Source of the DNA: Elusimicrobiota bacterium
Lineage (GTDB): Bacteria > Elusimicrobiota > Elusimicrobia > F11
Direction of reading: 5' to 3'
Length of the DNA: 11,666 nucleotides
NCBI GenBank assembly: GCA_022709485.1
Contig: JAKLIS010000018.1
Span: forward strand, 1 to 11,666
Numbering within the stretch: the first letter of the stretch is position 1; the number at the start of each line of letters is the position of its first letter. This document shows positions 1-11,666 of the stretch, piece after piece. A program made the translations under genes and the position numbers. The notes beneath the pieces are model-generated. The model had not been told where the DNA came from and did not search any database. It worked only from the letters and a program-made list of their open reading frames with translations.

Positions 1-80
1 AATATAGCCGGCTCGCACTGAACATCGTCTTTGGCCCCGCAAAGGGCTTCTAAAAGCATTTCAGAGACTTTAGAGAACAT
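1..80 (-). CDS. Start of an unidentified gene, cut by the left window edge
   Basis: Reading the minus strand, an ATG at 80-78 opens a frame that stays open to the window edge. It gives 26 residues beginning MFSKVSEMLL and containing two cysteines (EALCGAKDD, VQCEP). A strong purine-rich Shine-Dalgarno sequence, GGGGGAAG (91-84), lies 3 nt upstream. A regulated promoter candidate with a four-repeat activator array precedes it (112-166). No signal peptide or membrane segment is visible in this short piece and I do not recognise the family. That it is a real gene start rests on the ribosome binding site, the promoter and the shared orientation. The product is unknown. Confidence 0.6.
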   Translation of the reverse strand, partial: MFSKVSEMLLEALCGAKDDVQCEPAI

Positions 81-111: not shown

Positions 112-166
112 AGAGTACAAAACGCCAGATTAAGATTTGATTAAGTTTTGGTTAAGAAATGGTTAA
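112..166 (-). promoter_or_regulatory. Array A: four 11-bp-phased PhoB/PhoP-like repeats plus -10 (left-edge gene)
   Basis: On the minus strand the hexamers TTAACC (166-161), TTAACC (155-150), TTAATC (144-139) and TTAATC (133-128) are spaced by exactly 11 bp. Each is preceded by C, giving 7-bp units CTTAAyC with 4-bp A/T spacers. Ten bases after the last repeat is TACTCT (117-112), a candidate -10. Transcription would start near 105, giving a 25-nt leader that holds the GGGGGAAG ribosome binding site. The E. coli Pho box also uses 7+4 units ending about 10 bp before the -10, and Bacillus PhoP sites are TTAACA-like hexamers every 11 bp. Binding by a PhoB/PhoP-type regulator is inferred; another OmpR-family regulator is possible. 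The periodicity itself is directly seen. Confidence 0.7.
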
Positions 167-228
167 GCCGGTCGGGGTGGACTTAAGGCCATTTTGCTTC
201 TCTTTGAAGGACCATCTGTGTCTGACAT
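163..228 (-). CDS. Possible 21-codon small ORF between arrays B and A
   Basis: An ATG (228-226) begins a 21-residue frame (MSDTDGPSKR...RPA). Its TAA stop (165-163) falls inside the first repeat of array A. The predicted array B transcript start (near 242) would give a leader of about 13 nt, with a weak GAAG as the only ribosome binding signal. The peptide is hydrophilic, Lys/Arg/Pro-rich and unrecognised. A 21-codon frame can easily arise by chance, so this is only a candidate. The same interval could instead be an untranslated leader or a small RNA. Confidence 0.15.
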   Translation of the reverse strand: MSDTDGPSKRSKMALSPPRPA

Positions 229-248
229 CACTGAAACTTCTTGATAGG

Positions 249-303
249 AATGTACCAGGTATAAGATTAAGAACGCCTTAACGAATGGTAAATAAGATGT
301 AAA
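249..303 (-). promoter_or_regulatory. Array B: four 11-bp-phased PhoB/PhoP-like repeats plus -10
   Basis: The minus-strand hexamers are TTTACA (303-298), TTTACC (292-287), TTAAGG (281-276) and TTAATC (270-265), each 11 bp apart. TACATT (254-249) follows after exactly 10 bp as a candidate -10, so transcription would begin near 242. An A6 tract lies directly upstream (309-304). The hexamer order matches array C at 5650-5688, and the 14-mer gtaaattttttaag is identical in both (299-312 and 5684-5697). The array sits just after the giant gene's stop and about 100 bp before array A. It could be a second promoter for the left-edge gene or could drive a small RNA or short ORF between B and A. Confidence 0.65.
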
Positions 304-332
304 TTTTTTAAGCCAAAAAACTGAGGAGGCTG

Positions 333-3300
333 TTAGGCTTGGGATTCAGCTAACCTTCTGAAGAAGTCCATTTGGTGAAGATTGGTGGTAAGACGAACAG
401 CAAAAGCGTAGGAAATAAGGGATTCGAGAATATATATATGAAGTCGATCCTTGAAAGATTCGTCATTCTGCAATTCTGACAAGGCTTCAACTAAGAAAAC
501 CGGCAGATCGGGCCCCTGCCGTGTTAAAAAGACGTTAATTTTCCCTTGAATAGGGCCATTTTCAGAAGAAATCAATAAATCCTTGGCGGCTTGAGGGGAG
601 GAGAGATTGTCTGAGAATAAAATCCGCGGATGATGAAGGTCATCGACCTTCAATAGTTCTCTGACTTCCGAGCGCAAAGAGGAAAAGACGATGTCCATTT
701 TTGCTTTCTTTTTAATGGCTTGGTCCCAGAAAGGCAGTCCTTGGTAAGCTTTTAATTGTTCGCGGGCTTCTGAAATTGTGTCTCCTCGAATGACCATAAC
801 AATCCTGTCTTGTTGGGTTAAAGGGTTGGGGTCAGGAAACAAATAATTCACGCCAATTAGATTTTTTTTATCTGGAAGGACTTCAAATAAAAGCAAATAC
901 ATTAGGTCATAAAAATTTTGAGGTTTAAGAATTTTTTTATCGGGCAAATGGATCTGAAAAAAATAAGCGTATCGACTGCCGCTCATTAACCCCAAAGGGT
1001 CGACGCCTTCAATTTTTTCCAAAATTTGAAAGATACCTACTTTATTGCTCAGAATCTTTTGTAAGTCAGACGCCAGAGCCGGGCCAAGAACAAGAGATTC
1101 TTCTTCCGACCAAAACATGTTTTCCATGAACTGTTGATTTAAGGCATGCAGTTTCTCTTTGACCTCCTCAGCCAAAATTTCAGCTCCTTTTTTTGAATTA
1201 AGGTGCTTTTCGAGGCCTTGCCCATTGGGATGATTTGTTTTTTCAAATTCAACCAACACGGCCAGGGCGTTAATTATATTTTGGCGCATTAACATCCAAC
1301 CCTCTTTTGTTCGGTTTTCCTCATCGAATTCAATAAACCAATCGATAAAAACCTCAAAGGTCTTTAAGGGTTTCTTAGCGAATGGGGAGATAAATGCCGG
1401 CATCCATTCATGTTGAGCATAGGCCAATTTTTGATGGTTGGAATGCCCATTCATATGGGCCATAAAAATCTTTGAGAGAATGAATTTTTTCTGGGCGTTT
1501 GATAAGGGGGCGTCAGTTAACAAATTAGATAACTCAGTGAAGCCCGAGAGCTCCCCCCTGAAAATCTTAATCTCCGCGTCTATAACAGCCCGATGAATGC
1601 CTTTTTTTATAAAAACAAAATTAATCCCTCCATGCACCAATCCGCCAGCCACAATCGCAATGATTAAAAATATCGACGAGGCCAAAATGGAATTGGAATA
1701 AAGCGATGCGATAATAAATGGATAACCCGCGACCATCCCAACCATCGCGTACAAGGTGGCCTTAGCGGCTTGTCCCCAAGTCGGTTGGGCGTTGAGGGAG
1801 CCGTCCGGATTGACGATGCCTGAATATTTATGACCGAGTAAAAATAGAACGGCGATAGCAGAAAAAATAAGGATGGCGGGAATCAAAATAGGATAAAAAG
1901 AAGAAAGGAAGAAAAAGCTGTTTATGGAGGGCGGCGCCATCGAATGAATGCCGGCCCACCAGAATAACGCCTTGGCAATGGTGACTCCCATCAATATTTC
2001 AAGGAGGCCGATAACAGGTGTGTTATTTAATCCAAACCGTTTCCATACCCCCATAGCGCCGCTTTGGACCCCCTGTGGAGCGCCTTCCCAATTCCAATTG
2101 CAATCCTTCATTTGGTGAGAATTAAACCACGCGAAAAAGAGTCTTGAAGCCGCAGAGAATTTTTCTATCCCCTCTTTATCAATCGGGAGAGGGACTTCGA
2201 AACCCGAAGGCACGGCAAATACAGTGGCTCCATAGGAGCCCGGGGCCATATTCTCATCCATCAAGACATTCGCGCTTAATAAATAGGAGCCTTTTGTTTT
2301 CCTAGGATTAAACATTTGTTTCAACTTCATGGGGACCACTTTCCATTGTTCGCCATTCTGGGCATGGCCCCAAAAAAGGTAATAGTCCGCCCTCAATAAT
2401 TTCTTACTGACAAAAGGCAGTTTCAATCTAAAGTCAAGTTGGGGACCTCTTCGAAAAAGTTTTAGTCTCCCAGGATATAACGACTTGGCAATTTGAACCG
2501 TCTCATAGAGAAAGAATCCCGGATTTAATTCTTGAGGAGGTTTTCCCGCCTCTGAGCTATCCCCATCCTCTGAGCGGAGGAGGTCTCTCAAAGCCCGAAA
2601 AAGAGTCTTTCGGCTTGAAACGGACCAATCATGGTTTTTCGAATTAAATTGTTCAGCCGATCTTGAAATTGCGACTGTCACCTTTTGCGCGTCAAACTTC
2701 AGAGATTCAAGCAATTCATTCAGGTTGAGATCGGCTCCCAATTTCAAAGCTTCATTTAGGGAAGGATCTTGCCAAGTGAAAACAACTCGTTTTTTAATGC
2801 CAGAACTTTTTTTGATCTGAGTCAATTCATTGACAACCGCTAAAAGAAGCTCCACTTGAGCTTTTTCAAAATCCTTTATTGCTACCCCGGAATAAATAAA
2901 TTGAACGGCGTCGTCCCAAACGTTTCTGACAAATTCTGCCACCCGGTTGTGACTAACATACTCCCTTGCCAATCCAGCCGCATACTTTCTTAGATTAACC
3001 AAGTATCTTTTTTCCGCGGCAGGATCATGGTGGTCATATTCCGAATTTTCAAGAACAAATTCATTCAGACGGGCCAAAACTTCCGCAAGATGTTCCCCAA
3101 AGATGGGGGCAAGAATTTGCCCGTCTTTTTTAACCCGGCCCGTCCAAAACACCGTAAAACTCTCCTCGCTTAAAAGGTCCGGAAGAAGAGCCTGGGAAAT
3201 CTCCTCTATGACTGTGTCCAAACCATCAATTCTTTCTGGTAATTCCATTCCAGTGAATAAACCCCAATCCAATTTCAATTGGCCGTAAGATTTAAAATCC

Positions 3301-5627
3301 GCTTCCAGTAATTTGTTTTCCTTCGACAATCGAAGAAGCTCTTGAAATTTCTCCACAAATTGCTGACGGACTCTGTCGCGCGTCATAACAAGGGCGTTCT
3401 CCCTAAAAAAACGCCGAATCTCCACAAATTGCGTTTCTGAAATAGCGGTTTCAAGGGATATCTCTTCTCCAGCCAGGTCCGCAGATGGGGTATCCGTGGG
3501 GTCTAAAACACTGGCAATGCCTCCTCCCTTTGCCTCACCTAGAAACTTATCCAAAATGTATTTTATTGGGGCTATTATCCCGACCAACAAAAGAAAAGAA
3601 TTCATATCGGGAGAAATTAGCAGGCGCAGTATTCCTATGATCATAAACCCGACTAACCCCCCCCATTCCCATTTGAGAAGGGGCAAAATTTTATTGAAGG
3701 CGAAATCTTTGTATTCCCCGTAAAAAGCCACGACGCGGTTTCCGATTTTAAAAGGCTTTCTCAGCAAATATTGCCCTAATTGTGTGACACTCCCTAAGAA
3801 GCGGATGGTTACTTTTCTATTTCCCACCACCCAATGGGCTTCTTTTCCACCTTTTTCCAATTGAGGGATCGCTTTTTCAAATATGGAAAATAATCGGTTG
3901 GGATAATTGGAATCAGGTCCCCCGCCCATATGTGTCCGGGAGTTCATAACAGATAATCTTTTCACCTCAAACAACCTTTCTAATGGGCATTTTTCGCGGG
4001 TAAATAATGATAAATACTCCGTCCCCTGGTCGGTTTCAATTTTTGTGATTTTGGGCGCGTAAACCTGATAAGGCATATCTCTCTCACGAAGAATTCTCGC
4101 GATTTGAGGAGTATGGAATCCTCCTGTAAAAAGGACAACGCTTTGGGCCGGCATGAGGGGATTCCGGGAAATGGCATGGAAAAGGTTTTTAACCATTTTC
4201 TCACTGCGCGTTTCAGCTTCTTGGTAAAAATTCTCAAAAACAGATAAAGAAGCGGAAGACCAGCCGAACGGAGATGTGGATTGTTCCTTTTTGTACTCAT
4301 CCCATTCGCTGGGGACCATCGCCATTCGAATCAATTTCTCTTTCAGATACACCCAACGCGTCCAACGCACAAGTTGTTTTTCTCCGGGAGCCCTCGCCCG
4401 ACGAAAAACCATGGCTAAGGAAATTTTATGGACTTCCGCCAAAAGCGCGTCCAAATCGATCCCATCGGTTAAAAAGACGTAATAGAGATAATCCGCGAAG
4501 GCCGGATAGTTTTTAAGGTCAATTTTCTCTTTGGAAAAGAATTTCAAAAGCGATTTATTAAGGTCCGCGAAGGATAGATCCCCATTCTGGTAGGAAGCCA
4601 CCGCCTCCAAAAGAATGGATATTTCTATGGGCTCCAGCTTCTGTCCTAATCTTGATAGGACAGCGGCCCGCTCCTTTTCAGCCCGCGGAAAATCTAACGT
4701 CTTCTCAATTCGGTAAGACTCCAGGAAAGGGGCAATTTTCGGATTGAACTGAATTTGAGATTTCTCTTTCGGAGTGCCCGACTTAACCAGGGCATTCAGA
4801 TAATTTCCAAGATCCATTCTCCCTTGAACAAAATCCGAATTCAAAACGTCGATGGCGGTGAGGGAGGGACCAAACAGCTGTTTTTTTAAAGCGGCAAGCT
4901 TATTTTTTTCGTCGGATAGGGCCGCGAGATATTTGTTTCTTTCTTTTTCACCCAAAAAGATGGCTTGGACGTTCAAATCGTAATGGGTTTTATCATCGAC
5001 TCCGATAAAAGGTGGGATATTATTGTCAGCGACGACTCCCACATAGGAGGGAGCTCCTATTATTCCCTCTTCCAAAAAGCAATCGGCGATTTCCTTTTTC
5101 AGTCGCTTATTAGAGCCCGTTCGAAAGGGTGAGAAATTAAATTTTCCAAAAGCCCCTTCGACGCCAACCAACCCGATTTTTCTCTGATTAATCAATGAAA
5201 TTAATCCTTGGGCGATATTTTTCTGCGCTTCAAAGTTTTGGTGGACATCTTGAATCAAAATGATTTTGGGCCCCTGAGATCCCACAAAAGACTCCCGTGT
5301 GTTAAAAAATTGTAACGGATTGGAAATTCTGGACGGGGGGTTGGAAATTAATTTTGATGAAGGGTCTAGGAAGGAGGGAGGATTGGCAAATCGGGGAATT
5401 TGAATATCGGAAAAGGAATTTGGATTTGTGGGCGGTTTGGGGAGAGAAGCAAGCTGAGGGGGTCTCTCCATCGAGGACGACCCTCTTAATTTTCGGGTCC
5501 GTTCAGCCCAAAAGACTTTTTCAGGTTGCGTGGCGAAAAGGATTTGAGAAAAGAAGAATACGGGAATAAGAAGGCAGGTGAAGCTTCGAAAAGCATTGAA
5601 TTTTCGGCACGAACTTTTAAGGTTCAT
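333..5627 (-). CDS. Giant (1764 aa) exported/membrane protein with N-terminal ChaN/TraB/Tiki-like domain
   Basis: The start at 5627 gives a good signal peptide or N-terminal anchor: Arg/Lys at 8-14, hydrophobic core about 17-31, A32. Then comes a Pro-rich stretch (about 56-108). Residues 120-530 form a likely domain. It opens with KIILIQDVHQNFEAQKNI (H129, E133) and VGVEGAFG (E157), and closes with VVLFTGGFHTPQIARIL (H505). A strand with an acidic/His motif at the start and a GG/GxxH motif at the end is the pattern of the ChaN/TraB/EreA/Tiki group of putative metal-dependent hydrolases or proteases. I associate this version with Omnitrophota. Hydrophobic segments at about 652-690 and a cluster at about 1203-1338 suggest membrane anchoring. 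The parts at 720-1170 and 1345-1764 are unrecognised. There is no Shine-Dalgarno sequence and the predicted transcript start lies on the ATG. The gene stands alone between non-coding stretches and is preceded by regulatory array C. The substrate is unknown. That it is a real gene is near certain; the function is weakly supported. Confidence 0.85.
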   Translation of the reverse strand: MNLKSSCRKFNAFRSFTCLLIPVFFFSQILFATQPEKVFWAERTRKLRGSSSMERPPQLASLPKPPTNPNSFSDIQIPRFANPPSFLDPSSKLISNPPSRISNPLQFFNTRESFVGSQGPKIILIQDVHQNFEAQKNIAQGLISLINQRKIGLVGVEGAFGKFNFSPFRTGSNKRLKKEIADCFLEEGIIGAPSYVGVVADNNIPPFIGVDDKTHYDLNVQAIFLGEKERNKYLAALSDEKNKLAALKKQLFGPSLTAIDVLNSDFVQGRMDLGNYLNALVKSGTPKEKSQIQFNPKIAPFLESYRIEKTLDFPRAEKERAAVLSRLGQKLEPIEISILLEAVASYQNGDLSFADLNKSLLKFFSKEKIDLKNYPAFADYLYYVFLTDGIDLDALLAEVHKISLAMVFRRARAPGEKQLVRWTRWVYLKEKLIRMAMVPSEWDEYKKEQSTSPFGWSSASLSVFENFYQEAETRSEKMVKNLFHAISRNPLMPAQSVVLFTGGFHTPQIARILRERDMPYQVYAPKITKIETDQGTEYLSLFTREKCPLERLFEVKRLSVMNSRTHMGGGPDSNYPNRLFSIFEKAIPQLEKGGKEAHWVVGNRKVTIRFLGSVTQLGQYLLRKPFKIGNRVVAFYGEYKDFAFNKILPLLKWEWGGLVGFMIIGILRLLISPDMNSFLLLVGIIAPIKYILDKFLGEAKGGGIASVLDPTDTPSADLAGEEISLETAISETQFVEIRRFFRENALVMTRDRVRQQFVEKFQELLRLSKENKLLEADFKSYGQLKLDWGLFTGMELPERIDGLDTVIEEISQALLPDLLSEESFTVFWTGRVKKDGQILAPIFGEHLAEVLARLNEFVLENSEYDHHDPAAEKRYLVNLRKYAAGLAREYVSHNRVAEFVRNVWDDAVQFIYSGVAIKDFEKAQVELLLAVVNELTQIKKSSGIKKRVVFTWQDPSLNEALKLGADLNLNELLESLKFDAQKVTVAISRSAEQFNSKNHDWSVSSRKTLFRALRDLLRSEDGDSSEAGKPPQELNPGFFLYETVQIAKSLYPGRLKLFRRGPQLDFRLKLPFVSKKLLRADYYLFWGHAQNGEQWKVVPMKLKQMFNPRKTKGSYLLSANVLMDENMAPGSYGATVFAVPSGFEVPLPIDKEGIEKFSAASRLFFAWFNSHQMKDCNWNWEGAPQGVQSGAMGVWKRFGLNNTPVIGLLEILMGVTIAKALFWWAGIHSMAPPSINSFFFLSSFYPILIPAILIFSAIAVLFLLGHKYSGIVNPDGSLNAQPTWGQAAKATLYAMVGMVAGYPFIIASLYSNSILASSIFLIIAIVAGGLVHGGINFVFIKKGIHRAVIDAEIKIFRGELSGFTELSNLLTDAPLSNAQKKFILSKIFMAHMNGHSNHQKLAYAQHEWMPAFISPFAKKPLKTFEVFIDWFIEFDEENRTKEGWMLMRQNIINALAVLVEFEKTNHPNGQGLEKHLNSKKGAEILAEEVKEKLHALNQQFMENMFWSEEESLVLGPALASDLQKILSNKVGIFQILEKIEGVDPLGLMSGSRYAYFFQIHLPDKKILKPQNFYDLMYLLLFEVLPDKKNLIGVNYLFPDPNPLTQQDRIVMVIRGDTISEAREQLKAYQGLPFWDQAIKKKAKMDIVFSSLRSEVRELLKVDDLHHPRILFSDNLSSPQAAKDLLISSENGPIQGKINVFLTRQGPDLPVFLVEALSELQNDESFKDRLHIYILESLISYAFAVRLTTNLHQMDFFRRLAESQA

Positions 5628-5633
5628 GCATAT

Positions 5634-5688
5634 AGGCTATTACTTCGGAGATTAATTTTTCCTTAAGATCCTGTAAACAATTCGTAAA
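5634..5688 (-). promoter_or_regulatory. Array C: four 11-bp-phased PhoB/PhoP-like repeats plus -10 of the giant gene
   Basis: The minus-strand hexamers TTTACG (5688-5683), TTTACA (5677-5672), TTAAGG (5666-5661) and TTAATC (5655-5650) are 11 bp apart. TAGCCT (5639-5634) follows after exactly 10 bp. Six bases separate that -10 from the ATG at 5627-5625, so the expected transcription start coincides with the start codon. An A6 tract lies upstream (5694-5689), as in array B. TAATAG three bases earlier is an alternative -10 that would leave a leader of a few nt. The regulator identity (PhoB/PhoP-like, OmpR family) is inferred from spacing and sequence. Confidence 0.7.
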
Positions 5689-5753
5689 TTTTTTAAGAAG
5701 GGGTCAGGTCGCACCAGAGGGGAGAAGGTGCCGGTGCTGCAAGATTGGCTGTC

Positions 5754-5778
5754 ATGCCGAGAATTTTCTGCTCGGCAT
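5754..5778. repeat. Perfect hairpin, 8-bp stem and 9-nt loop
   Basis: atgccgag (5754-5761) and ctcggcat (5771-5778) are exact reverse complements around an A/T-rich loop. It lies about 70 nt past the stop of the operon's last gene. No U-tract follows on either strand, so it is more likely part of a palindromic repeat than a classical intrinsic terminator. Confidence 0.6.
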
Positions 5779-5781
5779 CCA

Positions 5782-5793
5782 GGGATTAATCCC
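5782..5793. repeat. Perfect 12-bp palindrome
   Basis: gggattaatccc is identical on both strands and lies 3 nt after the hairpin, inside the intergenic repeat. It could be another short stem of the same element or, less likely, a binding site for a dimeric protein. Confidence 0.5.
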
Positions 5794-5844
5794 GTGCAAA
5801 AACATCGCGGGATGAAGAAAAAGTTTAACGGTGCCAGCGCCTTC

Positions 5845-6807
5845 TTACTTCTGGTTCAGGACCAATCGGGTAACGTTGCCTCTGTCGGATAATTTTTCGA
5901 TCTTATGGCGAATGTCCACACCCGGGATATTGGTCGCATCGGAAATCATATTGATGATTTTCTGGCGCCTCTCTTCCTCAATGGGCGCCCGAGTGTTTTC
6001 CACGTACATTTCCACGGTGAGCGGTTGATTGGAATTTTCGCGGATGACGTCAATGGCGCGATCCCAAAGGCTTTGAATGTTCGGCTTCAAATCAGCGGTT
6101 CCGGCAACGAAAAGTTTTTCATTGGAGAATTCGATGCACAATTTCCGTTTTTGTTTAAACATGAGAGCGTCCAATTGAAACGGATCGCCCGGAAAGGTAT
6201 GAACGTTTTCATGCTCATCGAATGTCAGGAATTGATAGGAATACAATGTCCCCACCGCGATATATTCTCCCCGCTCGTTTCGACCGTCCCAATTGATTTC
6301 TCTAGGGGGCACGCCTTTCCCTTGAATAATCTTTACATTTTCGCCGGTCTGGTCAGACACGCGGAATTCCCATCTTTTGGAAGCCACTTTCGCCAACCCC
6401 GGTTTGAAGCTCACAAGCGGCGGCTCCGGGATGAGTGATTTCCAAGGTCTCAAGACTTGGTTGGAATCAATGACGGAGTAATGTTGAAAATCTTCTTCCG
6501 AGGGGATGGGCCGCGTTTCCTGCATAACGTGGTCGGTCTGCGCCGTGCCGCTTTCAATGATTTCTTTGACGTCTAAATCGATGGATGGAGGAGGTTTCTG
6601 AATATCCAATTGCTCTTTTACTTCCCCTTTGATGGTTTCAGAAAGCGGAGCGGATGATTGTCCGGGGGCCGGGGTCTTCGTTGCAGCCGATTTTGAAGTC
6701 GGCTGGGACTTTGCTGGTGCCGCAGATTTTGCATCCTGGGCTCCCCAAACCAATCCCCCCACCAGAAAAACCGCCGCCAAACAAGTCAAATTTTTAGATA
6801 ACCGCAT
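5845..6807 (-). CDS. Exported protein with FlgD-like Ig fold and degenerate OmpA-like C-terminus
   Basis: 320 aa. It has a signal peptide (K5, hydrophobic 8-20, likely cut near WGA at 21-23), then a low-complexity Ala/Pro/Ser/Lys linker (about 25-57). Residues 145-195 contain INWDGRNERGEYIAVGTLYSY, matching the WDG...G..v..GtY.Y signature of FlgD-type Ig-like domains. Residues 230-315 resemble the OmpA/MotB C-terminal fold (LFVAGTADLKPNIQSLWDRA, then EERRQKIINMI like the SERRA..V helix). However, the usual peptidoglycan-binding Asp of the GxTD region is not evident (VENTRAPIEE instead). The start is supported by AAAGGAG, inside the end of the preceding tonB-like gene, 7 nt before the ATG; the gap is 2 nt. 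As last gene of the proton-channel/TonB operon it is probably a periplasmic or outer-membrane partner, perhaps in the place of Pal. Domain calls are by eye. Confidence 0.85.
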   Translation of the reverse strand: MRLSKNLTCLAAVFLVGGLVWGAQDAKSAAPAKSQPTSKSAATKTPAPGQSSAPLSETIKGEVKEQLDIQKPPPSIDLDVKEIIESGTAQTDHVMQETRPIPSEEDFQHYSVIDSNQVLRPWKSLIPEPPLVSFKPGLAKVASKRWEFRVSDQTGENVKIIQGKGVPPREINWDGRNERGEYIAVGTLYSYQFLTFDEHENVHTFPGDPFQLDALMFKQKRKLCIEFSNEKLFVAGTADLKPNIQSLWDRAIDVIRENSNQPLTVEMYVENTRAPIEEERRQKIINMISDATNIPGVDIRHKIEKLSDRGNVTRLVLNQK

Positions 6808-6809
6808 GA

Positions 6810-8168
6810 TTACACTCCTTTAAAGGTGAAAATAATGACCCCTTCCTGAACTTCCTTGGATCGCTCAGGGGGTAGCTTGGTGAAAAGCCATTGCTGAAGG
6901 GCCGCCATCACTTTTTTATCATAGCTTGGATAACCGGACCCTGTTTCAATGAGAGTCGAAATGACGTTTCCTTGAGAATCAACTTGGAATCGAATCGCCA
7001 CGCGGCCGTCCACTTCATAGACCGGGAGAACTTTCTTTACGATCGGCCGATTGGCCAAAGGTCCCATAATTTGGAATCCCGCCCCGCTGGAGGAACCTCC
7101 TTCTGACCTTGAAACCACGGGCTCCGCCGCCACTGTACGCCTGGGAAGCATCGCGGTGGATCCGCCCCGTCCGCCGGCTCCGGTGCCAAATCCATATCCG
7201 CTTCCTCCACCCGACCCGCCTCCCGATCCAAATCCTCCGCCAGCCCCTTGTCCTTGCGCTCCGGGAATCATCCCACCCCCTCCAGGGCCAGACCCGGAAA
7301 TGCCGGTTCCAATGCCTCCGCCGCCGATAGGAGCGGCGCCGCCGCCTCCCATCCCCGAGGTGGACAGCTCATCTCCGCCCTTCCCGCCTCCCCCACGGCC
7401 GCCCCCGGCGCTACCGCCAAAACCACCGGCCGAAGACCTTGAAGAACTCAATTCTTTTCCTTTCAAGGCAGGCAGGGCCACAGGCCCCCCGGCCGCGGGC
7501 ATGTCCAACGATTTCACGGTTCGATCTGTTTTATTTCCCACCGCCATTGGAACCATATTAATATTGGAGAGTGTGTCGATTTCTTGCGGTTTCGAAATTT
7601 GAAAGGGCATATCCTTCCTCGCCACTTGATAAACTTTTTCTTTTAAATTGGATTTGGCAATGGGCTCGGTTCCCATAGAGGAAACTTTATTGATGGGAGA
7701 TTTGGCTAAATTGGCAGAGGCCAGGAGAGATTCTTGCTTATCTTTGGAACTGACGAATTCCTTTTTCGCCGTAAAGTCTTTGTTCGTCAAATTATCTCCC
7801 ACCGTCTTAAAAAGAGGCATGTCAGCGGCAATTTTATCTTCCGCTTGGCCCATGGCGATATCATCGGCCTCTTTGGCGGGTGTTTTCTTCGCGGTTTGCG
7901 TGAAAAATTTAACCATTTTTCTCAACACGCCTTTTTTGGCGCCTGGCCGGCCGGGCGCTCCCGGTTCGGGGTAGGAAGGAACCTCCGTCTGGTAGCCCAC
8001 CACCACCAGCGCCTCTCCAATATCGCCGCCTTGGGGTGTTAACAAATCCATCACTCCCCCCTTCCAAAGGAAAAGAAGCAAATGAACGGACAAAGCGACA
8101 GTGAAACAAACCGCTTCGCGGTGATTCACCTCAAAAATACCTGTTTGAATTAGGGGGCCTTTCATCAT
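6810..8168 (-). CDS. TonB-family energy transducer with glycine-rich linker
   Basis: 452 aa. After a short cytoplasmic end comes one membrane helix (about 20-37) with the TonB-like SVHLLLFLW, including a His (H29) in the helix. A long periplasmic linker follows, Lys-rich at 78-185 and strongly Gly-rich at 247-338. The C-terminal TonB domain is at about 367-452: YEVDGRVAIRFQVDSQGNV, then ETGSGYPSYDKKVMAALQQW and a final IIFTF strand. TonB normally has a Pro-rich rigid linker, so the Gly/Ser-rich one is unusual and implies a flexible spacer. ATG overlaps the stop of the upstream exbD-like gene (ATGA). It is expected to be energised by the TolQ/ExbB and TolR/ExbD proteins encoded just upstream and to act on an outer-membrane or wall-bound partner. 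No TonB-dependent receptor is in the window, so the target is unknown. Confidence 0.88.
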   Translation of the reverse strand: MMKGPLIQTGIFEVNHREAVCFTVALSVHLLLFLWKGGVMDLLTPQGGDIGEALVVVGYQTEVPSYPEPGAPGRPGAKKGVLRKMVKFFTQTAKKTPAKEADDIAMGQAEDKIAADMPLFKTVGDNLTNKDFTAKKEFVSSKDKQESLLASANLAKSPINKVSSMGTEPIAKSNLKEKVYQVARKDMPFQISKPQEIDTLSNINMVPMAVGNKTDRTVKSLDMPAAGGPVALPALKGKELSSSRSSAGGFGGSAGGGRGGGGKGGDELSTSGMGGGGAAPIGGGGIGTGISGSGPGGGGMIPGAQGQGAGGGFGSGGGSGGGSGYGFGTGAGGRGGSTAMLPRRTVAAEPVVSRSEGGSSSGAGFQIMGPLANRPIVKKVLPVYEVDGRVAIRFQVDSQGNVISTLIETGSGYPSYDKKVMAALQQWLFTKLPPERSKEVQEGVIIFTFKGV

Positions 8169-8593
8169 TGTTGCACCGGTTCAATCGCCGCTGCTCTTTG
8201 CCGGGTTCCCACTGCGACAGGGAATTTCCCGGCATTGCGATTGACGACTTTAAGGAGTTTATCGACCGCCCCGTAGGGGAGGCTTTTATCGGCCCGGACG
8301 ATGACCACAATATCTTCCCGGCCCTCAAGCGTTTTTCTGAGCTTCCACGGTAGGTCTTTAAATTCGACGCGGTCATTATCAATTGAAATGAAGCCTTCCG
8401 CCGTTAGCGTAACACTAACATTTTGATCCTTTGTCTCTTTGGTCATGGCTTCCGGGAGATCCACCGGCAGGCTGGGGAGATTCACGATGGGGCTCATGAC
8501 CAATAGGATCACCAATAAAACGAGCGTCACGTCGATGATAGGAACAACGTTCACCCCTGTGACAGCTTCCTCAGTCGGCTTTAATTTTTTCAT
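8165..8593 (-). CDS. ExbD/TolR-family proton channel subunit (second copy)
   Basis: 142 aa, the usual length for ExbD/TolR. NVVPIIDVTLVLLVILLVMSP (15-35) is the single membrane helix. D21 corresponds to the proton-carrying Asp of ExbD (D25) and TolR (D23). It is followed by SLPVDLPEA (41-49), very similar to the ExbD vnLPkA motif, and by a periplasmic domain with VIVRADKSLPYGAVDKLLKVV (97-117), the family's final conserved block. The start has AGGA 5 nt upstream. The gap to the preceding tolR-like gene is 16 nt, and the stop overlaps the tonB-like start by 4 nt. It resembles ExbD more than its neighbour does. It works with the MotA/TolQ/ExbB-type subunit in the inner membrane. Confidence 0.92.
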   Translation of the reverse strand: MKKLKPTEEAVTGVNVVPIIDVTLVLLVILLVMSPIVNLPSLPVDLPEAMTKETKDQNVSVTLTAEGFISIDNDRVEFKDLPWKLRKTLEGREDIVVIVRADKSLPYGAVDKLLKVVNRNAGKFPVAVGTRQRAAAIEPVQQ

Positions 8594-8609
8594 GATTTCC
8601 TACATCCCC

Positions 8610-9047
8610 TCAACCGTTCGCGGCGGCTTCTTTTCTGCGAGGAACCAAAGACAAACTCTGGGCCCCGCTTTGTTTGGCGATATCCAAAATTCTTATGACT
8701 TCTTGATATACCACATCCTCGGCTGATGAAATAAGAACCGTCCGTTCCCGCATCGTGGAGAGGTTTCTTTGCAGGAGCCGGAAGAGTTCATACTCCGTCG
8801 TTAGAGGTTGTCCGTTCACCTTGAAACCACTCCGTGTGATATCAATAAAGAGAGGTTTTTCCCCTTTTGCGACCGATGACGGGGCTTCCACGGCTTGAGA
8901 CGGCTGAACTTGCAGCATGGACTGCATTATCATGGGGGAAATTACCATGATAATAATGACCAAAGTCAGACACACATCCGCCAGCGGAATAATGTTGACT
9001 TCGGCTAAAGTCTCTTCTTCGCCTTCTCTAATGTGACGTTTTGGCAC
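8610..9047 (-). CDS. ExbD/TolR-family proton channel subunit (first copy), probable GTG start
   Basis: 145 aa from GTG at 9047. VNIIPLADVCLTLVIIIMVISP (17-38) is the membrane helix, with the proton-relay Asp at D24. The periplasmic part ends in RTVLISSAEDVVYQEVIRIL, the usual C-terminal block. An upstream ATG at 9128 is in frame but would overlap the channel gene by 101 nt, add a basic tail unlike the family and lack a ribosome binding site. GTG gives a 20-bp overlap and the usual short N-terminus. No strong Shine-Dalgarno sequence precedes either, so the start is moderately certain and translation is probably coupled to the upstream gene. It pairs with the TolQ/ExbB subunit. It is well diverged from the second copy, so the two may form mixed dimers or serve different states. 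Confidence 0.85.
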   Translation of the reverse strand: MPKRHIREGEEETLAEVNIIPLADVCLTLVIIIMVISPMIMQSMLQVQPSQAVEAPSSVAKGEKPLFIDITRSGFKVNGQPLTTEYELFRLLQRNLSTMRERTVLISSAEDVVYQEVIRILDIAKQSGAQSLSLVPRRKEAAANG

Positions 9048-9711
9048 GGATTTCGCTCGCTTTCGGCTGCGCGGGTTTTTCTCCCACGGGCTCTCCCCCG
9101 TAAATGAGAATAATGATTTCCTGCGCATAATTATTTAGCTTTGTAACGATGCCGCGTAATTTGTACGTAAACATGTTGTAGAAAACGGCGGATGGAACAG
9201 CCACAATGATACCCATCGCCGTCGCAATCAAAGCCTCTGAAATTCCCGCCGCCACGATATTGGCACCTCCAGACCCGGATTTGGCCAAGTCATGGAAGGC
9301 CTGCATGATTCCAGTCACGGTTCCCAGGAGTCCGATAAGGGGAGACACGAACGAGAAGGTGGCGAATATGCCAAGCCTTTTCCGAAGAACGTCCTGTTGG
9401 TTTTCTTTCTCGATTTGCACCAAGTCTTCATTATCAGCCCGGGTGAGATGGGTATTGCTGATGGCGGTAAAAAAAACCTTAGCAAACACGTTATTCTTCT
9501 GGGAACACATCGCTCTGGCTTCATGGAGACGGCCGGCCGCGACGGATTGTTTCAATTTTTCCCAAAATTTTTCGCTCCAGCTGCCTATCGTCAAGTACGC
9601 CCAAATCCGCTCGATAAGAAACGTCAACATAATCACCGAAAAAATCAACAAGGTGATGATGATAGCCGGATTGACTTTGATAATTCCCATGAAACCCATT
9701 TCCATTAGCAT
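9028..9711 (-). CDS. MotA/TolQ/ExbB-family proton channel protein
   Basis: 227 aa, the usual TolQ/ExbB length. It has three membrane helices at about 15-37, 115-138 and 156-180, with a cytoplasmic loop between the first two. The conserved GLLGTVTGIMQAF (127-139) and GISEALIATAMGIIVAVPSAVFYN (156-179) are the core channel helices of the family. The protein forms the inner-membrane ring around a TolR/ExbD dimer and lets protons drive its rotation or conformational change. The start is fixed by GGAGG at 9723-9719, 7 nt upstream; M3 is an alternative. It lies 40 nt after the TPR gene and overlaps the next gene. Sequence alone does not separate TolQ from ExbB; a TonB-like gene nearby and no TolA, TolB or Pal favour an ExbB-like role. 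Confidence 0.93.
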   Translation of the reverse strand: MLMEMGFMGIIKVNPAIIITLLIFSVIMLTFLIERIWAYLTIGSWSEKFWEKLKQSVAAGRLHEARAMCSQKNNVFAKVFFTAISNTHLTRADNEDLVQIEKENQQDVLRKRLGIFATFSFVSPLIGLLGTVTGIMQAFHDLAKSGSGGANIVAAGISEALIATAMGIIVAVPSAVFYNMFTYKLRGIVTKLNNYAQEIIILIYGGEPVGEKPAQPKASEIRAKTSH

Positions 9712-9718
9712 ATGCTCG

Positions 9719-9723
9719 CCTCC
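9719..9723 (-). promoter_or_regulatory. Ribosome binding site of the proton channel gene
   Basis: GGAGG on the minus strand, 7 nt before the ATG at 9711. It is the best Shine-Dalgarno sequence in the operon and lies in the 40-nt gap after the TPR gene, which holds no clear terminator or promoter. Confidence 0.6.
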
Positions 9724-9751
9724 ATTTTTCTATGTCCCGAATTTTGTTGCG

Positions 9752-11666
9752 TCATTTTATTTCTGACCTTAAAGCTTTTGCCCGATCCAATGCCGCCTGG
9801 CGCCACTCCGAGTTTTGCGCGTTCTTGGCAATGTCGTCATAAACCTTGATGGCCTCGTCGATGCTTCCGGCTTCTTGATAAATTTCCGCCAAGGTCACCA
9901 TTCCCGTGAGCCGGACCTCATCGCTCTTGGGTTCTTTGGCGCGGAGTTTTTCAAACATCTGCATCTCTTTGTTGGGCATCTTCATCACCCGATAAAGCTG
10001 CGCCTTGGAATTGAGGGCTTCAAAAGACTCGGGGGCGCTATCGGGAACTTTGTCATATAATTTCAAAGCCTTCTCATAATCCTTATCTTCTTCGCTCAGT
10101 TGTCCCATCTGGAGAAACACCTTGGCGAGCTGGGCATCGTTTGGATAATGATTTAGGAATTTTTCATAGGCGCCCAAAGCTTCCTTGTTCTGCTTCATTT
10201 TCTTATAGCTCAAGGCGATGTTCATCATCGCGTCCCGGGTTAACGGTCCGTTTGGATCTTCCTCCGCCAAATCATTAAAGGAAATCACCGCTTCGCTGAA
10301 ATTGCCCGTTTGGAAATGGCTCACCCCCAACCGAAACATGCTTTGGTTTCGGTTCGGAGATTTGGGGAAATTCAAGATGAAGTTTTTATACGCCGTGACG
10401 GCTTTGGGAAATTCATCCAGATTGAAATGGCATTCGGCCATGTAATAATAGGCTTCCTCAATTTGTTTGGCTTCGGGGAATTCCCCCACCAATTTCTGGA
10501 AATACATGAGAGCCGGCTTATATTGCTTTTGATTGTAGGCATCGGCGCCCATCTGCCAATAAATATCGGCATTCAGTTTGCTCGAGGGGAATTTTTTGGT
10601 CAAAGCCATCATATCCCCCTGCATTTTCCCCTGCCTGTAATGCGCCATCTGGAGAAGTTCCATGACGTCTTTGGACTTGGGATCTTTCGGGTAGTTGTTT
10701 AAAAATTCCTGAAGTTTGGTTCCCGCCAAATCAAACCGCCCCTCGTTATAGTAGCTCTGGGCAATCATAATACGGGCTTCTTTGGCGTTGGCGTACTGGG
10801 GGTATTTTTCTAGGAGAAGCTGAAATTGCTTGGCGGAGTTATCATAATCCCCCAAGCCAAAATTCGTTTTGGCGATTTGATAGAGCGCCATCGGAGCCAG
10901 TTCATGATTCGGATAGCCGTCCGCCACCCGCTTCCAGCGCTTGTTGGCCTCTGAATAATACTCGAGGCGGTAATAACACATGCCGGCTTGGTAAAGGGCA
11001 TGCGGGACCATCGCATCGTCTGGATACCGGTTGGCAAATTCATCAAAATAACCCATGGCTTTTTCGTATTTCTTTTGAGAAAAAAGAACCTGGGCAGTGT
11101 CGAGAAGGACGCCCCGTTCTACTTCTTTGCTCTTTATTTCTCCCGCGGCCGCCATCGCTCTTTCATAAGCCATTCCGGCTTCGTCATTCAAACCCGCTTT
11201 GGCCATCGATGCCGCCACCCCCAAAAGCGCATAGGCATATTTCGGCGAATCCTTATAATTATCCACCACCAATTGGAACGTGCGCCCCGCCGCTTCATAT
11301 TGATCCAGGGCAAAATAGGCTTCCGCCACCCAAAGGTAGCTTTCCGCCTGCCACCGGCTGGGACTCACAGGGGACAGCTTAAGCTGGGAATTCAAACTCG
11401 TCACGATTTCAGCCAACTGATTGTTTTGAAAGAGAGATGTGGACATTAAATAAATGGCTTTTTCAGAAAAGGCAGAATTACCAAACTGGTCGATGACAAT
11501 CTGGTATTCCTGGTTGGCTTCCCGGTGTTTTTTCATCCGCTGAAGGCAAACACCTTTGAGTAAATGCGTCTTCGCGGCCAATTCTCCCCATGGATAATCT
11601 TTAAGGAATTGTTCCGCCCGGGCCACAGCGGTTTCATCCTGTTTTTGCTGGGCCAAACACCAGATG
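9752..11666 (-). CDS. Long TPR-repeat protein (CpoB/YbgF- or BamD-like), 5' end beyond the window
   Basis: The frame is open to the right edge. A TTG at 11656 could be read as a start, but the frame continues upstream and TTG has no visible ribosome binding site, so the gene is treated as partial. The visible 637 codons are made almost wholly of TPR helices of the YP......A......Y...g.y..A...f type seen in outer-membrane lipoprotein BamD and in CpoB/YbgF. Counting from the TTG, the helix-turn Tyr/Phe-Pro sites fall at 211, 248, 285, 322, 356, 393, 430, 467 and 504, nearly always 37 residues apart, and weaker repeats lie on both sides. The protein is probably periplasmic, but its signal peptide would lie outside the window. 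It leads the operon, with the proton channel gene 40 nt downstream, like CpoB beside Tol-Pal genes. It is a scaffold for protein contacts; the partner is unknown. Confidence 0.88.
   Translation of the reverse strand, partial: IWCLAQQKQDETAVARAEQFLKDYPWGELAAKTHLLKGVCLQRMKKHREANQEYQIVIDQFGNSAFSEKAIYLMSTSLFQNNQLAEIVTSLNSQLKLSPVSPSRWQAESYLWVAEAYFALDQYEAAGRTFQLVVDNYKDSPKYAYALLGVAASMAKAGLNDEAGMAYERAMAAAGEIKSKEVERGVLLDTAQVLFSQKKYEKAMGYFDEFANRYPDDAMVPHALYQAGMCYYRLEYYSEANKRWKRVADGYPNHELAPMALYQIAKTNFGLGDYDNSAKQFQLLLEKYPQYANAKEARIMIAQSYYNEGRFDLAGTKLQEFLNNYPKDPKSKDVMELLQMAHYRQGKMQGDMMALTKKFPSSKLNADIYWQMGADAYNQKQYKPALMYFQKLVGEFPEAKQIEEAYYYMAECHFNLDEFPKAVTAYKNFILNFPKSPNRNQSMFRLGVSHFQTGNFSEAVISFNDLAEEDPNGPLTRDAMMNIALSYKKMKQNKEALGAYEKFLNHYPNDAQLAKVFLQMGQLSEEDKDYEKALKLYDKVPDSAPESFEALNSKAQLYRVMKMPNKEMQMFEKLRAKEPKSDEVRLTGMVTLAEIYQEAGSIDEAIKVYDDIAKNAQNSEWRQAALDRAKALRSEIK

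Follow-up and report, generated by a model that had tools for sequence, protein, structure and literature searches.

The window analysed here, 11,666 nucleotides that make up the whole of contig JAKLIS010000018.1 (G000:C90 in our numbering) of an Elusimicrobiota bacterium (assembly GCA_022709485.1), contains three arrays of four hexamers repeated every 11 bp, each followed by a -10-like element, and one of them precedes a gene for a giant protein of 1764 aa. Arrays of the same geometry stand before genes of this protein's family in many genera and are absent from the interior of those genes. Most probably, the arrays are operator-promoters of a single regulon, which would be run by a response regulator of the OmpR/PhoB family from promoters that have no -35 element, and one regulator probably turns the giant family on together. 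As judged from sequence comparison, the regulon is well supported, its operator being of a known type, its targets unexpected and its regulator a candidate only.

Three arrays of identical geometry in the window

The arrays lie on the minus strand, and their 12 hexamers and three -10-like hexamers are all as the original prediction had described them. Array 3 (5650..5688; TTTACG, TTTACA, TTAAGG and TTAATC at 11-bp steps; genome match G000:C90:5635-5688) precedes the giant gene (333..5627, minus strand), with the -10-like hexamer TAGCCT (5634..5639, read directly) 10 bp past it. Since only 6 bp separate this hexamer from the ATG of the giant gene, the transcript probably has little or no leader. 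Array 1 (128..166; TTAACC, TTAACC, TTAATC and TTAATC at 11-bp steps, read directly; genome match G000:C90:115-167) and array 2 (265..303; TTTACA, TTTACC, TTAAGG and TTAATC at 11-bp steps; genome match G000:C90:249-303) form a tandem pair, 137 bp apart, of which array 2 is the distal member. Their -10-like hexamers, again 10 bp farther on and read directly, are TACTCT (112..117) and TACATT (249..254), respectively. Both arrays lie upstream of one gene (3..80, minus strand) which, because the window is the entire contig, is cut by the contig end after its first 26 codons; a purine-rich, ribosome-binding-like stretch lies just upstream of it, and a fuzzy search of the collected loci with its peptide gave itself and two chance matches only. 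Tandem arrays occur in relatives too, for example at 57110 and 57206 of G003:C12.

When spacings from 7 to 15 bp were scanned, perfect four-unit TTWA arrays occurred in the window at 11 bp only. The four perfect matches are the three arrays plus array 1 re-read on the plus strand, which is matched as well because TTAA is palindromic. At this spacing, the window holds 4, 1, and 5 matches with 0, 1, and 2 mismatches, against means of 0, 0, and 0.1 in 40 dinucleotide shuffles, none of which contained an array with 0-1 mismatch. This bears out the claim of the original prediction that such arrays are unlikely to arise by chance.

The probable regulon in the genome of the window

The giant gene belongs to an expanded paralogous family. 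Matches to its protein in the genome of the window (2.1 Mb, 531 contigs, 85% complete) comprise 28 stretches in 24 places, and these paralogues are 22-37% identical to the window protein. An array is present upstream of all 19 paralogue loci that have upstream DNA (leave-one-out matrix scores 19-44); at the remaining 5 of the 24 loci, the match begins only 70-153 bp from a contig end.

Profile R1, a sequence-only profile built from 20 arrays of this genome, gave 32 matches in the same genome at E <= 0.001, of which 20 are the training arrays, which match by construction, and 12 are new. Among the 30 best, 20 precede family genes, 3 precede PorV/UPF0164-like genes (two of them above the Pfam cut-off), 2 are arrays 1 and 2 of the window, and 5 precede other genes, namely, an N-acyl amino acid synthase-like gene (FeeM), a TPR gene, and three genes without a Pfam match. 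Two further matches at E <= 0.001, on C146 and C136, fall outside this catalogue of 30, that on C136 being the family locus L012. None of the 30 best matches lies inside another gene, a single flagged overlap being with the upstream extension of the very frame that the array would drive. Arrays equally common in coding sequence, the pattern that the original prediction had named as contrary to it, were thus not seen.

Arrays in other genomes

Genes of the giant family were found in 20 of the 60 genomes of the class, with up to 35 matches per genome and a longest frame of 12,118 aa (G002:C49), all among the matches listed. The 80 named homologue loci comprise 71 from Elusimicrobiota (including Ca. 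Obscuribacterium magneticum, which we take to be a member of this phylum), 8 from Omnitrophota, and 1 from Auribacter. The cleanest test used these 80 loci, after removal of 2 duplicates and of 4 loci whose upstream DNA was too short, together with a matrix derived from the genome of the window only and a score of at least 10. An array was found upstream of 58 of the 67 distinct Elusimicrobiota homologues elsewhere and inside the gene, on either strand, in none of the 67; read on the antisense strand, these upstream regions reached the threshold in 4 of 67 cases. With the same matrix, none of the 7 homologues from Omnitrophota and Auribacterota had an array upstream, and this contrast with 58 of 67 agrees with the suggestion that the operator is a lineage-specific version.

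A genome-by-genome scan with R1 was subject to stricter filters, by which weak matches were lost, and its counts are too low in f4 genomes, whose arrays diverge. Among the matches listed, it placed arrays (E <= 0.001) in 11 of the 60 class genomes, all 11 among the 20 that bear the family, and seven array-rich genomes have 16-43 array places each. Arrays re-found in relatives with R1, and therefore outside its training set, numbered 25 (26 loci examined): 20 precede family genes and none lies inside another open reading frame. The other five precede a UPF0164/TraF-like gene (sub-threshold), a TPR gene, a gene with an fn3-like start (L151 in G022, one domain of which is a purple-acid-phosphatase N-terminal match), and two genes that we could not identify. 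A wider matrix, P2, was used near regulators, for the re-found arrays, for loci of G017, G023, G039, and G007, and for pst/porin promoters; it was trained partly on loci from the same genomes that it scored.

Form of the proposed operator and promoter

In a sample of 65 arrays (20 from the genome of the window and 45 from relatives), the usual sequences are TTTACA or GTTACA for units 1 and 2, TTAAGG for unit 3, and TTAATC or TTAAGA for unit 4. The -10 element starts 9 or 10 bp past unit 4 in 63 of the 65 arrays, and the best match to TTGACA at the correct -35 distance reaches at most 3 of 6 positions in 62 of them. The overall form is thus a pair of KTTACA units, a pair of TTAAG/TTAATC units, a gap of 9-10 bp, and TANNNT, with no -35. 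Repeats that run head-to-tail at about 10-11 bp, keep a constant register relative to a -10 element, and are not accompanied by a -35 element fit an OmpR/PhoB-family activator that replaces the -35, and five PF00486 matches show that the genome encodes OmpR-family regulators, the absence of which would have spoken against the original prediction.

According to passages of PMC1906773, the E. coli PhoB box is built of tandem 8-bp repeats and a 3-bp linker and lies 10 bp ahead of TAN3T/A, and cyanobacterial SphR has CTTAACCT as its unit; passages of PMC4415409 describe OmpR-family operators as direct repeats bound head-to-tail by winged-helix domains. The arrays resemble these Pho boxes in their head-to-tail 11-bp units, in the distance of about 10 bp to TANNNT, and in a unit close to SphR CTTAACCT, so that the OmpR/PhoB-type site with Pho-box geometry proposed in the original prediction holds as to layout. 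They differ from Pho boxes in being asymmetric four-unit arrays (two KTTACA, two TTAAG/TTAATC), in that the targets identified are genes for giant and PorV-like proteins instead of phosphate genes, and in that array-like sites are present in G017, in which PhoB and PhoU were not found.

Our current working hypothesis is that two dimers of a phosphorylated OmpR/PhoB-family response regulator would bind the four 11-bp units head-to-tail, all along the same face of the helix, with KTTACA as the distal pair and TTAAG/TTAATC as the proximal pair. The bound regulator would hold a sigma-70-type RNA polymerase at a promoter with a -10 and no -35, and one two-component system would thereby switch on the giant, apparently exported family together with PorV-like outer-membrane proteins.

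Alternative origins of the arrays and the phosphate question

Most arrays precede one gene family, and they might for that reason be an ancestral family promoter that was spread by gene duplication and needs no special regulator. We rejected this promoter copying, which is very improbable, on the basis of sequence identity within the arrays: in pairwise comparisons of 20 arrays of the genome of the window, units are kept at 0.78 while spacers stand at 0.32 and flanks at 0.26, among paralogues that are themselves far apart. Conserved units within spacers and flanks that are near random look like protein binding under selection and not like recent copying; moreover, arrays also precede PorV-like genes and, in G008, a kinase operon. 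The fixed distance to the -10-like element would also suit a promoter for an alternative sigma factor or a DNA-bending tract, yet sigma factors do not use a layout of four same-orientation, sequence-specific repeats at 11 bp combined with a sigma-70-type -10, and we give this explanation hardly any credence.

A further reading, which takes up the phosphate link suggested in the original prediction, is that the PhoB orthologue (G000:C179) uses the arrays as its Pho boxes and that the giant proteins are made under phosphate starvation. The layout equals the published PhoB/SphR geometry with units resembling SphR boxes, a PhoB/PhoR-like pair exists in the genome of the window, and the PhoB recognition helix is alike in f1, f4, f5, and f6. 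A giant gene is divergent from pst in G001. Two sets of genomes argue for phosphate control and, to that extent, against a separate regulon: in G006 and G015 (both f4), an array and a giant gene directly follow phoU of a phoB-phoR-porin-pst-phoU cluster (L126:4319-19003, L127), and G047 and G049, which lack the family, have TTTAC-type array-like sites in pst/porin promoters (P2, scores 21 and 24; L135:14838, L136:12817). Against this, family searches gave no PhoU or PstS match in the 85%-complete genome of the window. G017, which is 100% complete, has no PhoU and, among the matches listed, no regulator more than 41% identical to the PhoB of the window's genome, and it carries array-like sites at 5 of 5 family loci examined (P2 scores 9-35, two of them weak). 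More broadly, G017, G002, G016, and G032 (completeness 100, 71, 81, and 85%) have arrays or array-like sites and no match above 41% identity to that PhoB, and PhoB orthologues are found in many genomes without an R1 array, again among the matches listed. Seven pst/porin promoter stretches of the family-bearing G001, G006, G022, G007, and G028 contain GTCA-type units at 11 bp, an eighth (G008) shows no clear GTCA-type units, and the giant gene beside pst in G001 has no array. Lastly, of 55 arrays whose next gene was examined (30 from the genome of the window, 25 from relatives), not one was followed by a gene that could be recognised as pst, pho, or a complete phosphatase gene, some of the following genes being unidentifiable; in particular, no pst, phoU, phoB/R, or phosphatase gene, before which enrichment had been expected, was recognised behind the 30 arrays of the window's genome. 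On the PhoU and PstS searches, the distribution of PhoB, which does not track that of the arrays, and the ten pst/porin promoter stretches read, the phosphate reading was not supported, and we regard it as improbable. We take the array to be an offshoot of a PhoB-type operator that would now be used by another regulator; the TTTAC-type sites of G047 and G049 are possibly true Pho boxes of the class and an ancestral form of the array.

Candidate regulators

A kinase/regulator pair on G000:C521, hereafter X, is our tentative choice of regulator, at somewhat less than an even chance, ahead of the pair Y on C401, PhoB on C179, or some other protein. Among the matches listed, 14 of the 20 genomes with the family have X, as does one of the 40 without it (G027). 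In G008, G028, G017, G006, and G015, X has an array and a large gene in its vicinity, the genes in the first three being family genes by profile. Families f1, f4, f6, and f12 have similar X recognition helices, and the first two units of the array are the same in all four.

The regulator might instead be Y (G000:C401), also of the OmpR type, with the scheme otherwise the same; we consider this unlikely, while taking it seriously. Y is encoded in an operon (L299:1595-8421) whose other genes specify a histidine kinase, additional receiver proteins, an HlyD-type protein, and an FtsH-like protein of the AAA/M41 type. Each of the 10 genomes in which Y reaches 55% identity carries the family, and if matches of 44-48% are included, which is our own reading, 16 of the 20 genomes with the family have Y, as does G027 (both counts among the matches listed). 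In G008, the kinase gene of Y has an array in front of it; in G003 and, weakly (score 17), in G001, the Y operon is followed directly by an array and a large gene; and arrays are present on the Y contig in G016 and G031. The contig of Y in the genome of the window, however, has no array, and the recognition helix of Y is strongly altered in f4 (GTIDVHIRHLR to an STVYTHIERLR-like sequence), whose arrays keep KTTACA units. Because the helix of X is constant and that of Y changed in f4 while units 1 and 2 are unchanged, X is favoured over Y, a preference that assumes that the recognition helix predicts the site.

Several observations weigh against X, against the regulon as a whole, or against both. 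X was not found at the cut-off in 6 of the 20 family genomes, namely, G007 (92% complete), G023 (96%), G032 (85%), G035 (80%), G036 (59%), and G042 (73%), among the matches listed, and arrays are present in G032, G035, G036, and G042 all the same; only 5 of 13 X loci have a nearby array. Scored with P2, arrays per 100 kb number 2.7 near X, 2.5 near Y, 0.95 near PhoB, and 0 at 21 loci of other regulators; as the genome of the window has an overall rate of about 1.5 per 100 kb (32 in 2.1 Mb), the densities near X and Y are less than twice that rate and thus constitute weak evidence. The co-occurrence of X and Y with the family is confounded with descent, all three following one and the same clade. 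As to the regulon, 18 of the 20 top matches before family genes in the genome of the window are training sequences, and family genes without an array were encountered in 2 of 3 cases examined in G023, in 2 of 2 in G039, once in G007, and once beside the pst operon of G001. Finally, in G027 array-like sites accompany X as well as Y (P2, scores 17-33), although the family was not found there.

G027 (L313, L428; G027:C37) is family-less by N-terminal search, and its array-like sites stand beside X and Y and also before other large genes. The regulon may be older than the spread of the giant family.

The giant protein and its surroundings

The giant protein has a signal-like N terminus, as assessed by eye, and the giant proteins are apparently exported. 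The window protein was matched neither by a Pfam model (E 0.001) nor by an NCBIfam model (0.01). The family-wide N-terminal domain (3900..5366, minus strand) is possibly ChaN/erythromycin-esterase/Tiki-like with a helical insertion: its best structural neighbours belong to this superfamily, a grouping that emerged on a second look, and it has two invariant His motifs, QD.H and GGFH. A Foldseek search of the domain against the PDB gave no match at E <= 0.001. The family may resemble the ChaN/Tiki superfamily in these fold neighbours and motifs and differs from it in the large helical insertion, in the fusion to long variable C-terminal parts, and in a sequence match that stays below threshold: in one relative (P0013), Pfam PF04187 scored 27.3 bits, the cut-off being 27.7, and it gave no match in the window protein.

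Ahead of array 3 and on the same strand, an operon (5845-11665) encodes a TPR protein, TolQ/ExbB, two ExbD/TolR proteins, a TonB-like protein rich in glycine, and a protein of 320 aa that no Pfam model matched; this Tol/Ton-like operon perhaps energises export of the giant proteins. Just upstream of array 3 lies an intergenic repeat (5751-5815) with the look of a REP-type or small mobile element. For the 150-bp stretch 5697-5846, the genome matches listed (E <= 0.001) number 47, itself included, most of them to 5751-5815 and at 70-100% identity, and copies of the repeat are also found close to arrays on C49 and C161. The window gave no match in Rfam and tRNA scans.

Significance

Passages of PMC11573180 and PMC10066038 report that very long predicted proteins are enriched in Elusimicrobiota and Omnitrophota, and according to PMC11573180, Elusimicrobiota are among the bacterial phyla richest in huge proteins, none of which had a COG assignment. 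The passages considered describe no common N-terminal domain or promoter for these proteins, and a search of the literature, by titles and passages, retrieved no report of a regulon or common promoter for giant proteins. Compared with OmpR-family arrays, those described here are of one type that serves 16-43 places per genome (in the seven rich genomes, among the matches listed), mostly before a single protein family. It is conceivable, at slightly worse than even odds in our view, that a dedicated, non-phosphate two-component system acts through this single asymmetric four-unit array to command most of the giant, exported ChaN/Tiki-type repertoire of Elusimicrobiota, so that some 16-43 promoters per cell would be on together in one state, for example upon cell or surface contact.

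A shared, well-defined operator would provide a handle on when the huge proteins of Elusimicrobiota are made and predicts further members of the regulon, such as the PorV-like proteins. It also narrows the regulator to a few proteins, which could be assayed in vitro without cultivation of the organisms.

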